From NCBI GenBank assembly GCA_018335895.1, contig JAGXQU010000190.1:1-32696 (forward strand): 32,696 nt of DNA, written 5' to 3'. Every line of letters starts with the position of its first letter. Within the stretch, counting starts at the first letter, position 1. The stretch is from Hyphomicrobiales bacterium (GTDB taxonomy: Bacteria; Pseudomonadota; Alphaproteobacteria; Rhizobiales; Xanthobacteraceae). This document shows, piece after piece, positions 19,316-23,902 of the stretch. Both the position numbers and the translations under genes were made by a program. The notes beneath the pieces were generated by a model. It saw only the letters and a list, made by a program, of their open reading frames with translations. It was not told the origin of the DNA and made no database searches.

Positions 19316-19837
19316 TCAGCCTCCGCTCGTGGCGCTCCGCACGCAGTCGTTGTTCATGGAGCCGAACATTTCGTCGGCTTTGCCGAACAGCTTTTCGGAA
19401 TCCGCGACCGGCGCGCTTTTCGCGAGATCGACGACCCGCGCGAGTTCGCGCGAAAGCATCGTATACTCGTAGCGTTTCTGCTCGCCCTGGAAGTTCGCGA
19501 GATAGGTGCCATAGGCACCAAAACGGCTGACCGCATTCTGCGCTTCGGAAGCCGCCGCAACCACTCCGGGCGAATTCGGATTCTTCTCCCGCTCCAGCGC
19601 CGCGCTCAACGTCGCGGTCCTGAACTTGATCTGGAAGAAGGCGTCGATCAGGTCTTTGCAGATACGGGCAGTTTCAGACCGCGCCACGCCGGACTGGATC
19701 AGCTCGACGAAGCGGGTGTTCAGATAGCCCTGGTACATCGACGTCACCAGCGACAGCGCGGCGACGAAGAACGAAACATAGGCGAAGGAGTTCGCGTTGA
19801 ACCGGCCCGTTTCGGATTTTTTCTGCGGACGCTTCAT
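19316..19837 (-). CDS. Unknown single-pass membrane protein
   Basis: A 173-residue protein I do not recognise. A basic N-terminus (MKRPQKKSETGR) leads into one hydrophobic segment at about residues 17-34 (SFAYVSFFVAALSLVTSM). A mostly helical, soluble domain follows, rich in Ala, Glu, Arg and Lys, with two cysteines (about C59 and C165). By the positive-inside rule the C-terminal domain should face the periplasm. It starts 27 bp after the pdhC stop on the same strand, so it may be the last gene of the pdh operon. No catalytic motif is visible. Codon use looks like its neighbours, so it is probably a real gene. Confidence 0.7.
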   Translation of the reverse strand: MKRPQKKSETGRFNANSFAYVSFFVAALSLVTSMYQGYLNTRFVELIQSGVARSETARICKDLIDAFFQIKFRTATLSAALEREKNPNSPGVVAAASEAQNAVSRFGAYGTYLANFQGEQKRYEYTMLSRELARVVDLAKSAPVADSEKLFGKADEMFGSMNNDCVRSATSGG

Positions 19838-19864: not shown

Positions 19865-21193
19865 TCACGCCATCAACGAAAGCGGCTTCTCGACGGCCTC
19901 GCGGAAGGCGGACAACAACTGCGCGCCGAGCGCACCGTCTACGGCCCTGTGATCGCAGGACAACGTCACCGTCATGATGCTCGCAGGAACGACCTGCCCG
20001 TCGCGGACCACCGGCCGTTCTTCGCCCGCACCGACCGCGAGGATCGTCGCTTGCGGGGGATTGATGACGGCCGCGAAATCCTTCACGCCGTACATGCCGA
20101 GATTGGATATTGCCGTGGCCCCGCCCTGAAATTCGTTGGGCTTCAGCTTCTTCGCCTTGGCGCGGCCCGCGTAATCCTTCATCTCGTTCGAGATGGCGGA
20201 AAGCGACTTGCCTTCGGCATGGCGGATGACCGGCGTCACGAGCCCGCCCTCGATCGCAACCGCGACGCCGATATCCGAGTGCTTGTGCCGAAGCATCGCC
20301 GCCTCGGTCCAGGTCACGTTCGCGTGCGGCACCTTCTGCAACGCAAGCGCCATCGCCTTGATGACGAAGTCGTTCACCGAGAGCTTGAAGGTTGGCTTAC
20401 CGTCCTTGTCTTTCGGCGCGGTCGCGTTGATCTCTTCGCGTACCCGCAACAGCGCACCGATATCGCAGTCCGCGGTGAGATAGAAATGCGGGATCGTGAG
20501 CTTGGACTCGAGGAGCCGCCGCGCGATCGTCTTGCGCATGCTGTCATGCGGGACCTGCTCGTAGCTGCCATCCTGATAAAGCGCGCGGATCTGTTCGTCG
20601 CTCGGCACCGAGATGCCGGGCATGGTGCCACCCGAAGGCGCTGATGGCGCACGCATCTGCGCGCTGCCGGAACGCGCGGCTTCGATATCGCGCGCGATCA
20701 CGCGGCCATGCGGGCCCGAGCCAGAAACGCGGGCGAGATCGATGCCGGCATCTTTTGCAAGCCGCCGCGCGAGCGGGGATGAAAATACACGCCCGCCGCT
20801 GCCATTGGATTTCGGAGCGGAAGGAGCCTGTAAACCAGCAGCGTTTTGCGCGGGCGCGGGAGCCGCCATCGGCGCTTCTGCCTTCGGAGCGGCTGCGGCC
20901 TGCGGCTTTGGCGCGGAAGGCGCGTCTTTTGCGGCAGCGCTCGCGTCTTCGCCCTCTTCGGCAAGCACGGCAATCACCTGATTGACCGGAACGTCGGCGG
21001 TACCTTCCGCGACCATGATCTTAGCGATCGTGCCTTCATCGACCGCCTCGACTTCCATCGTCGCCTTGTCGGTCTCGATCTCGGCGATTACGTCGCCCGC
21101 CTTGACCTTGTCGCCTTCCTTCTTGTGCCACTTCGCGAGATTGCCCTTCTCCATCGTGGGCGAAAGCGCGGGCATAAGGATGTTGACGGGCAT
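19865..21193 (-). CDS. pdhC: Pyruvate dehydrogenase E2, dihydrolipoamide acetyltransferase
   Basis: A 442-residue E2 subunit. A single N-terminal lipoyl domain (1-80) carries the lipoylated lysine K43 in [15 protein letters not shown]. An Ala/Pro-rich linker (about 85-135) is followed by the E1/E3-binding domain (about 137-173, SSPLARRLAKDAGIDL...GPHGRV). The catalytic core ends with the active-site motif DHRAVDGALGA (H415, D419). It accepts acetyl groups from E1 and transfers them to CoA, forming the core of the complex. It starts 10 bp after pdhB with a GAGGA ribosome site overlapping the pdhB stop. Its first 80 residues and their DNA closely resemble the start of pdhB. Confidence 0.97.
   Translation of the reverse strand: MPVNILMPALSPTMEKGNLAKWHKKEGDKVKAGDVIAEIETDKATMEVEAVDEGTIAKIMVAEGTADVPVNQVIAVLAEEGEDASAAAKDAPSAPKPQAAAAPKAEAPMAAPAPAQNAAGLQAPSAPKSNGSGGRVFSSPLARRLAKDAGIDLARVSGSGPHGRVIARDIEAARSGSAQMRAPSAPSGGTMPGISVPSDEQIRALYQDGSYEQVPHDSMRKTIARRLLESKLTIPHFYLTADCDIGALLRVREEINATAPKDKDGKPTFKLSVNDFVIKAMALALQKVPHANVTWTEAAMLRHKHSDIGVAVAIEGGLVTPVIRHAEGKSLSAISNEMKDYAGRAKAKKLKPNEFQGGATAISNLGMYGVKDFAAVINPPQATILAVGAGEERPVVRDGQVVPASIMTVTLSCDHRAVDGALGAQLLSAFREAVEKPLSLMA
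21127..21175 (-). repeat. Near-identical lipoyl-domain DNA, copy in pdhC
   Basis: These 49 bases match 22511-22559 in pdhB at 47 positions, including 26 consecutive identical bases (21150-21175). The two copies are direct repeats about 1.38 kb apart and code for the same stretch of the lipoyl domain. The similarity continues more weakly through the rest of both domains, including third codon positions around the lipoylated lysine. Confidence 0.85.
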
Positions 21194-21203
21194 CGCGCGG
21201 TCC

Positions 21204-22577
21204 TCAGCGATACGTTACCGCGCGCGCTGCCTCGATCACCTTCGCGGCGGTCGGCAGCGCGAGCTTCTCGAGATTCGCGGCATAAGGCATCGGCACATCT
21301 TCGCCGGTCACACGCCGCACCGGCGCATCGAGATAGTCGAAGGCTTCGTCCATGATGCGCGCGGCGATCTCGGAGCCCACGCCGAATTGTGGCCAGCCCT
21401 CTTCGACGGTCACACAGCGTCCGGTTTTCTTCACCGACTCGATGATCGTCTGCATGTCGAGCGGACGGATGGTGCGCAGGTCGATGACTTCCGCGAAGAT
21501 GTGTTTTTTCGCGAGTTCTTCCGCCGCTTCCAGCGCCCAGGTCATGCCGATGGACCACGCGACGATGGTGACGTCCTTGCCAGGGCGCGCGATCTTCGCC
21601 TTGCCGATGGGAACGAGATAGTCGTCGAGCTTCGGCACCGGGAAGGTCTTGCCGTAGAGAATTTCGTTTTCAAGAAATACGACCGGATTCGGATCGCGGA
21701 TCGCGGATTTCAGCAATCCCTTCGCGTCCGCGGCCGTGTAGGGCGAAACAACTTTCAAGCCGGGGATGTGCGCGTACCATGACGCGAAATCCTGGCTGTG
21801 CTGGGCGGCAACGCGCGCGGCCGCTCCGTTCGGGCCGCGGAATACGATCGAGCAGCCGACCTGACCGCCGGACATATAAAGCGTCTTCGCAGCCGAGTTC
21901 ACGATCTGGTCGATCGCCTGCATCGAGAAATTGAACGTCATGAATTCGACGATCGGCTTGAGGCCGGTGAATCCCGCGCCGACGCCGACGCCCGCAAAGC
22001 CATGTTCGGTGATCGGCGTATCGATCACGCGGCGTGCCCCGAATTCCTGCAACAGTCCCTGCGTGATCTTGTAAGCGCCCTGATACTCGGCGACCTCCTC
22101 GCCCATGACGAAGACATCCGGATCGCGGCGCATTTCTTCGGCCATCGCATCGCGCAGCGCCTCGCGAACCGTCGTGGCCACCATCTCGGTGCCTTCGGGC
22201 ACATCCATCTCTTCGGGCGCGGCTTCTGCCGGTTTGCCGGTGCTGGCGGCGGCGCCATCTTCGCCCGCCACCGGTTTCGCCGGTGAGTCCGTTTTCTTCG
22301 GCGCGGATTTCGCAGGCGCATCCGAAGCGCTCTCGCCTTCGCCGAGGATCAGGGCAATCGGCGTATTGACGGCGACATCCTGCGTGCCCTCGGGAACGAG
22401 AATTTTCCCGAGTTTGCCCTCATCGACCGCCTCGACTTCCATCGTTGCCTTGTCGGTTTCGATTTCGGCGATCACATCGCCGGCTTTCACGTCATCGCCT
22501 TCCGCCTTCAGCCACTTGGCGAGATTGCCCTTTTCCATCGTGGGCGAAAGCGCGGGCATGAGGACTTCGATCGGCAT
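21204..22577 (-). CDS. pdhB: Pyruvate dehydrogenase E1 beta subunit with N-terminal lipoyl domain
   Basis: A 457-residue protein. Residues 1-80 are a complete lipoyl domain with lysine K43 in [16 protein letters not shown] flexible Ala/Pro/Glu linker (about 82-130) leads to the transketolase-like E1-beta domain, beginning [15 protein letters not shown], with [16 protein letters not shown] and [14 protein letters not shown]. With PdhA it decarboxylates pyruvate using thiamine diphosphate. A lipoyl domain on E1-beta is unusual outside alphaproteobacteria and gives the complex a second swinging arm type besides that of E2. The ATG at 22575-22577 is chosen over an upstream in-frame start because the lipoyl domain begins there. 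It lies 11 bp after the small membrane gene. Confidence 0.97.
22511..22559 (-). repeat. Near-identical lipoyl-domain DNA, copy in pdhB
   Basis: This is the partner of the repeat at 21127-21175, with 47 of 49 bases identical. The longest exact run is 22534-22559 (26 bases). Confidence 0.85.
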
Positions 22578-22588
22578 TACTGACCTGC

Positions 22589-22867
22589 TTATCGCGGCGC
22601 GGTGGCGAAGATGAACGCGCCACCCGCAAGAATGAGGCAAACGAAGAATACGGCCATCGCGATATGTACCCTGCGGGCGTTCTCGCGCGCTTCTCCGGTG
22701 AGCCTGCCATTGACGAAGAGCCAGTTGAAGAACAACTGGCTGCGAAGATGCTGCTGCTCGGGCGCGAGCGAGGCGTGAGTCCGCACGTAGAAGAAAGCCG
22801 CCGCTAACCAGCTCAGCCCGATCCCGATCAGGGCGGCGTAAGCGACAAGAAACCCGAGCGTGCGCAT
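22589..22867 (-). CDS. Small two-helix membrane protein between pdhA and pdhB
   Basis: A 92-residue protein I do not recognise. The first membrane segment lies at about residues 5-27 ([24 protein letters not shown]), a charged loop of roughly 40 residues follows ([21 protein letters not shown]..., with an Arg-rich [14 protein letters not shown]), and the second segment lies at about 69-89 ([20 protein letters not shown]). It sits 12 bp after pdhA and 11 bp before pdhB, so it is almost certainly cotranscribed and translated between the two E1 subunits. No enzyme motif is visible. A membrane tether or assembly role for PDH is possible but is inference from position only. Confidence 0.78.
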
Positions 22868-22879
22868 GACCGTGTTCCC

Positions 22880-23902
22880 TCAGCGCAGAACGTCGGTATA
22901 GAGCTCCGAAACATCGGGCTCCGGATCGTTGGTGGCAAATTCGGCGGACTCGTTCACGATCCCGCGGATTTCAGCATCGATCTTCTTGATCTCGTCTTCG
23001 GAGGCGAGCTTTCTTTCGAGGATGCGGTTGCGCACGCGCTCGATGGGGTCGCGCTCGGTGCGCATCTTGTCCACTTCGTCCTTCGAGCGGTATTTCGCGG
23101 GATCCGACATGGAGTGGCCGCGGTAGCGGTAGGTCTGCATTTCGAGGATGAACGGGCCGTTGCCGGTGCGGGCGTACTCGACCGCCTTCAGGCCCGCGTC
23201 ATAGACCGCGCGCACATCCATGCCGTCGACTTTCTCGCCGGGGATGTTGAAGGAAGCGCCGCGCTTTGAAAAATCCGTAAGCGCCGACGAGCGGTCCACC
23301 GACGTGCCCATCGCGTATTTGTTGTTCTCGATGATGTAGACGACTGGCAGCTTCCAGAGCTCCGCCATGTTGAAGCTCTCATAGACCTGGCCCTGGTTCG
23401 AAGCGCCGTCGCCGAAATAGGTGAGACAAACATTGCCGTTATCGCGGTAGCGGTTCGCGAAGGCGATGCCGGTTCCGAGCGATACTTGAGCACCGACGAT
23501 GCCATGACCGCCGAAGAAGTTCTTCTCGACGCTGAACATGTGCATCGAGCCGCCTTTGCCCTTGGAATAGCCGCCGCGGCGTCCGGTAAGCTCGGCCATG
23601 ACGCCATTCGCTTCCATGCCGCAAGCGAGCATGTGGCCGTGATCGCGGTACGCCGTGATGACCTGGTCGCCATCCTTTAGCGCCATCTGCATGCCGACGA
23701 CGACGGCTTCCTGACCGATGTAGAGATGGCAGAAGCCGCCGATCAGTCCCATGCCGTAGAGCTGTCCCGCTTTTTCTTCGAAGCGGCGGATCAGCAGCAT
23801 CTCGCGATAGGCTTTGAGTTCCTGCTCCTTGCCCCACGCAGCAGTTTTCGTTGCGCGTGAAACGGACTTGTCTGCTTTGTCAGCTTTAGCGGCTGCCGGC
23901 AT
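22880..23902 (-). CDS. pdhA: Pyruvate dehydrogenase E1 alpha subunit
   Basis: A 340-residue thiamine-diphosphate enzyme subunit. The TPP-binding motif begins GDGASNQG (164-171) and ends with [11 protein letters not shown] (191-201). The early segment [16 protein letters not shown] (55-70) and the loop [11 protein letters not shown] (258-268), equivalent to the regulatory phosphorylation loop of mitochondrial E1, are intact. With PdhB it decarboxylates pyruvate and acetylates E2. The frame extends far upstream, but ATG 23900-23902 gives the usual start with a short lysine/alanine-rich leader. A 149-bp gap separates it from ftsB, so it may have its own promoter. This is the E1-alpha/E1-beta heterotetramer type, not the single-chain AceE type. 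Confidence 0.97.

Follow-up and report, generated by a model that had tools for sequence, protein, structure and literature searches.

Between the genes for the two pyruvate dehydrogenase (PDH) E1 subunits of a Hyphomicrobiales bacterium (Xanthobacteraceae) lies a small gene whose product belongs to an unnamed family of small membrane proteins, lineage-restricted and patchy in its distribution, and which we tentatively put forward as an accessory inner-membrane protein acting with PDH E1, a candidate partner whose contact with the enzyme would be physical. The stretch of DNA analysed (contig JAGXQU010000190.1, 32,696 nucleotides, hereafter the window) had earlier received a sequence-only reading, which described at 22589-22867 an ORF of 92 residues with two membrane helices, separated by 12 bp from pdhA ahead of it and by 11 bp from pdhB behind it. 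Our coordinates match, with gaps of 12 bp from the end of pdhA (22880) and 11 bp to the start of pdhB (22577), and the strand, unstated in that reading, is the minus strand only, the plus strand containing a stop over the same positions. Read along the minus strand, the gene order is eno (named by eye), a gene for a DivIC-type septum protein, pdhA, the small ORF, pdhB, pdhC and a 173-aa ORF (Table 1).

Table 1. Features of the pdh gene run and of the small protein encoded within it
Feature	Positions	Strand	Basis
pdhA, E1 alpha subunit	22880..23902	-	Pfam E1_dh E=1.2e-107 on 22880-23890; start codon picked by eye
RBS-like GAGGGA, overlaps pdhA stop, precedes small gene	22876..22881	-	by eye
Small-protein gene, 92 aa from ATG	22589..22867	-	ORF reading; comparative evidence (homologues in slot, dN/dS)
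First membrane helix, residues 2-32	22772..22864	-	AlphaFold2 model, hydrophobicity
Positive loop, predicted cytosolic; short helix 36-50 ends at W49-x-F51	22697..22771	-	model, charge, alignment
Second membrane helix, residues 58-89	22601..22696	-	AlphaFold2 model, hydrophobicity
RBS-like GCAGG, abuts small-gene stop, precedes pdhB	22584..22588	-	by eye
pdhB, E1 beta subunit, N-terminal lipoyl domain	21204..22577	-	Pfam Biotin_lipoyl, Transket_pyr, Transketolase_C
pdhC, E2, same gene run	19865..21193	-	Pfam 2-oxoacid_dh, E3_binding

The 173-aa ORF after pdhC (19316-19837, minus strand) encodes a second uncharacterised protein, in which a single hydrophobic stretch is seen by eye close to the N-terminus and for which a Pfam scan gave no match at E <= 0.1. 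Relatives of it were found in 16 of 100 genomes of the window's family, 14 of them on the pdhA contig within about 7 kb, and its product may be another membrane-anchored protein of the PDH operon. There is no strict pairing with the gene between pdhA and pdhB, which is present in 8 of the 16 carriers and missing from 6, the remaining 2 having an unreadable junction.

The length of the small ORF by itself is weak evidence of a gene, since 1921 of 20000 mononucleotide shuffles stay open over the length of 22589-22867. Comparison with relatives is what indicates that the ORF is a genuine gene under protein-level selection, because proteins of 71-79% identity occupy the same place in three congeners and at L014 and L015, because dN/dS of the small gene is 0.11-0.57 in all 14 pairs of close relatives, and because 35 members from 17 genera share the slot between pdhA and pdhB. 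By the same measure the small gene is less constrained than pdhB, whose dN/dS of 0-0.16 lies below that of the small gene in 13 of 13 computable pairs (the pair with G081, whose pdhB forms a long odd branch, being left out); when dN alone is considered, the small gene exceeds pdhB in 12 of the 13.

A direct protein search recovers only 13 of the 100 family genomes, the window included. Because the small protein diverges fast, we located the junctions through pdhA, for which a match was present in all 100 genomes and which yielded 97 readable pdhA-pdhB junctions; G047 and G068, with no pdhA orthologue among the matches listed, and G054, where the contig ends, gave none. The length of the gap is bimodal: it spans 8-94 bp in 60 junctions and 268-674 bp in 36, and the one junction between these classes has 155 bp with no ORF of 50 aa. 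A two-helix protein alignable to that of the window is encoded in 35 of the 97 junctions, that is in 35 of the 36 gaps of at least 200 bp, and the carriers come from 17 of the 47 genera sampled; the gene is missing from the other 62 junctions. The sole wide family gap without a member, in G032 (L036), holds a different ORF of 200 aa with one hydrophobic segment. A profile search over the 100 genomes gave 35 strong matches (E <= 5.1e-22), each adjoining pdhA in the slot, after which the best remaining match was partial and had E = 0.0037. Many of the recovered sequences are among the 25 members from which the profile (A2) was built, and finding these again is a matter of construction. No full-length copy outside the pdhA-pdhB slot was seen among the candidate stretches scored, at most 49 per genome in the 100 genomes, a limit at which a very diverged copy elsewhere could escape the search.

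Within the order, 140 junctions besides the window were measured, 4 in the window's family and 136 in other families. They were read from pdhA because a profile search there, which scored 17 candidates per genome and matched 3 of 297 genomes including the window, misses diverged members. Twenty of the larger gaps, all in other families, were read as sequence and the small ones assessed by length alone; G164 and G231 were dropped since their subunits lie on separate contigs, and G235, G107, G165, G166 and G103, with gaps outside the family estimated at 90 bp or more, were left out of the slot reading. In these 20 junctions family f18 accounts for two copies, one intact and one interrupted, and there is one borderline case besides. 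The intact f18 homologue, in G158, reaches 26.4 bits with a profile from which it was excluded, against 8.8 bits for the best of 200 segment-preserving shuffles. In G189 (L109) a stop breaks the frame of the slot gene, which looks like a copy in decay, and three further f18 genomes (G116, G216, G240) show 81-87 bp between the two genes. The borderline case is G104 of family f6, where a two-helix ORF of 130 aa (L111 188-580, plus strand) nearly fills the slot and scores 13.0 bits against 9.4 for the best shuffle. Judged by these scores, f18 is the only family besides the window's own that clearly carries the gene, among the families sampled.

Across the class, 109 junctions were measured. In 92 of them the genes lie less than 90 bp apart, in 6 the distance is 93-128 bp, and in 11 it exceeds 300 bp; small gaps were judged by length, and the count excludes G137, which belongs to the window's own order, along with six genomes that offered no usable pair. 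None of the 11 widest gaps, all of which were read, contains a member, three being accounted for by the lipoyl domain of pdhB (G468, G453, G459) and eight by other ORFs. When 192 genomes of the class were searched with the profile, 25 candidates being scored in each, so that diverged members can be missed as in the order, only the window and two weak matches came up; both were taken as chance, G430 (E=1.2e-4) having two stops inside and G404 (E=0.009) being partial. The sequence-only reading had considered what a conserved membrane partner in this place would suggest and had proposed recording how often it lies between pdhA and pdhB. Conservation holds only inside the window's family, in 35 of 97 junctions, and in at least one other family; none of the 11 wide gaps read among the 109 of the class contains the gene. 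Homologues scattered away from pdh genes, which that reading had named as evidence against its idea, were not encountered, all 35 strong profile matches lying in the slot.

The slot itself recurrently accepts small genes. In the order, G238, G179 and G108 hold slot ORFs without membrane segments, and 8 of the 109 class junctions hold other ORFs, two of them encoding a MAPEG-like membrane protein. These two belong to family f50 (G507, G391), where the gene stands shortly before pdhB (L154 245-634, plus strand; L156 138-527, minus strand); the G507 copy, the only one scanned, matches Pfam MAPEG at E=4.4e-19. The MAPEG protein is likewise a membrane protein in the pdhA-pdhB slot, in another alphaproteobacterial family, and it differs from the protein described here in its 129 aa, its three to four hydrophobic peaks and the lack of a credible score with the slot-protein profile. 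At L112 and L151, from two different families, slot ORFs of 127 and 139 aa resemble VOC/glyoxalase-type proteins (by eye). Since the slot holds other genes elsewhere, a position between the E1 genes speaks for the tolerance of the slot and is no proof of a role in PDH.

When presence and absence are placed on a quick pdhB tree of the family (96 rows, G076 being too short to include), 11 changes are needed, compared with 28.4 in shuffles, none of 500 shuffles being as low. The starred branches alone force only 2 changes, and such counts do not separate gain from loss. Given the f18 homologue, it would be simpler to suppose that the gene arose early and was lost repeatedly, and the interrupted copy in G189 fits loss. 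Patchy presence also means that PDH works without the small protein.

The observations of the last two paragraphs bring us to the reading that competes most closely with an accessory role, namely that the protein is a passenger of the operon with an unrelated job in the envelope, whose gene entered the slot in an ancestor and has been kept since thanks to a stable, well-expressed operon. Insertion is evidently tolerated, as other lineages carry other slot genes, and both the patchy presence and the weaker constraint relative to pdhB agree with this reading, to which we assign a probability a little short of even. A passenger would be expected elsewhere in the genome at least sometimes, yet all 35 strong matches sit in the slot and the 100 genomes, with at most 49 stretches scored in each, gave no other full-length copy.

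The shape of the protein is consistent across the family. The two hydrophobic segments of the window protein reach Kyte-Doolittle peaks of 2.01 and 2.71, and two strongly hydrophobic segments are present in 35 of 35 members, this being a selection criterion for members. An AlphaFold2 model, made with 3 close sequences, predicts helices at 2-32, 36-50 and 58-89 with a mean pLDDT of 80.7 and a pTM of 0.66, two of the five models lying near 80 pLDDT and three at 57-65. The inter-helix loop measures 33-54 residues in the 35 members and concentrates the positive charge, with a mean K+R of 6.49 compared with 0.14 before helix 1 and 1.91 after helix 2, and the loop exceeds both ends combined in every member. 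By the positive-inside rule, the positively charged parts of membrane proteins face the cytosol, and the loop is therefore predicted to be cytosolic, in the compartment of PDH, and both termini periplasmic. In a 25-member alignment W49 is the sole invariant column and W20 is nearly invariant; the consensus also includes R29, WPF in the loop and, where helix 2 begins, a VNKA-type sequence, and no acidic residue reaches 50% in it. The window protein retains W20, R29, W49-x-F51, A64 and V67, with WLF for WPF and VHIA for VNKA, as its genus has WLF and either VHIA or VN variants at the start of helix 2. It has the full set of features of the pdh-slot hairpin, namely the slot, two helices, the W near the end of helix 1, R29, the loop motif and the helix 2 start, the last features in variant form.

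The sequence-only reading recognised no known family, and this is borne out, no credible match having been obtained in Pfam, NCBIfam, PDB sequences or PDB folds; a match to a known unrelated family, which it had named as a refuting result, likewise did not occur in the Pfam and NCBIfam scans. The window protein had no match above cut-off in either collection. For 14 and 25 relatives, scanned with cut-offs not given, the best values were E=0.0033 in Pfam (EptA_B_N) and 0.0024 in NCBIfam (ArlG), each from a single member, and we rejected both families. A PDB sequence profile returned three kinesins at E about 2, also rejected, and a PDB fold search gave no match at E <= 0.001. LapA_dom (PF06305), a short membrane-protein domain, shows a faint profile similarity over window residues 4-42 (E=0.017, 15.5 bits, below the curated cut-off of 28 bits); it is the one family that several members match, weakly, in 7 of 14 and 6 of 25. 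Phage_holin_3_6 (PF07332) scores 10.6 bits with the window protein, under its curated cut-off of 28.4 bits.

A small membrane protein within the PDH gene run recalls the mitochondrial pyruvate carrier, which is likewise functionally adjacent to PDH, and the hairpin could be imagined to oligomerise into a carrier or channel that brings pyruvate or another small molecule to its enzyme. The conserved W and common R residues close to the helix ends would suit a transport subunit. We nevertheless consider it very unlikely, since the mitochondrial carrier family does not appear among the 23 families that a scan of 25 members lists at E <= 1, no pyruvate-transporter family being among these weak matches, and the fold search and the lack of a consensus acidic residue also speak against it. 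The mitochondrial family has three helices, whereas the slot protein has merely two membrane segments in 35 of 35 members and two long helices in the model. The least probable of the readings is that translation matters more than the product, a membrane-targeted frame pulling the polysome to the membrane or setting the E1 alpha:beta ratio, with the pdhB start site at its 3' end; the tight spacing and the RBS-like sequences that overlap or touch the neighbouring stops agree with it, but protein-level selection (dN/dS 0.11-0.57) and conserved loop residues indicate a working product, and the stop lies exactly 5 bp ahead of pdhB, with AAGAG or CAGAG within the end of the coding sequence, in only 12 of 35 members, the distance reaching 366 bp in one.

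Our proposal, then, is that of an accessory protein, held at about equal odds with the passenger. A helical hairpin of the inner membrane would be made from the pdh transcript, its turn coming after E1 alpha and before E1 beta, with both ends periplasmic and an arginine-rich loop of 33-54 residues, bearing a W-P-F-type motif, in the cytosol. At the membrane surface this loop would touch E1, either newly made or already assembled, and the contact would modulate or position part of the enzyme; operon co-expression, contact with E1 and an effect on PDH are each presumed here, and tethering or assembly control may be the outcome. Because many relatives do without the gene, the role would be conditional and non-essential. 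For a link to PDH speak the exclusive slot over 17 genera, the f18 homologue in the same position, the short spacings, protein-level selection and the charged, W-bearing loop predicted to be cytosolic; against it speak the 62 of 97 junctions without the gene, the 11 changes on the tree, the failure to find it in nearly all other sampled families, a dN/dS above that of pdhB in 13 of 13 pairs, the other genes in the slot, and the fact that gene order may persist by inertia. We think it unlikely that the accessory protein is a dedicated PDH membrane adaptor of one lineage, whose arginine/WPF loop docks E1 and thereby places the production of acetyl-CoA and NADH beside the respiratory chain.

Our literature search, judged from its results and not from full texts, turned up no account of a membrane protein encoded in the pdhA-pdhB slot. 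The nearest functional precedent found would be PdhI (YneR) of Bacillus subtilis, a PDH E1 inhibitor reported to bind the PdhA-PdhB module, to co-elute with large PdhA/PdhB assemblies and to occlude the active site (PMC10090944). PdhI is a non-catalytic protein tied to the PdhA-PdhB module (PMC10090944), and the slot protein would act on the same part of the enzyme. PdhI is not described there as a membrane protein (PMC10090944), unlike the slot protein, and we liken the two by function and not by sequence.

Should the protein prove to be a passenger, the pdhA-pdhB gap would still be instructive as a place where a central operon has taken in small extra genes again and again. PDH is treated as a soluble complex, and a family tied to the E1 pair, under selection as a protein and with a charged loop predicted to lie in the cytosol, offers a direct route to testing whether PDH is anchored or tuned at the membrane in some bacteria. 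The patchy distribution of the gene supplies natural pairs for such a comparison, relatives that carry it beside relatives that lack it.
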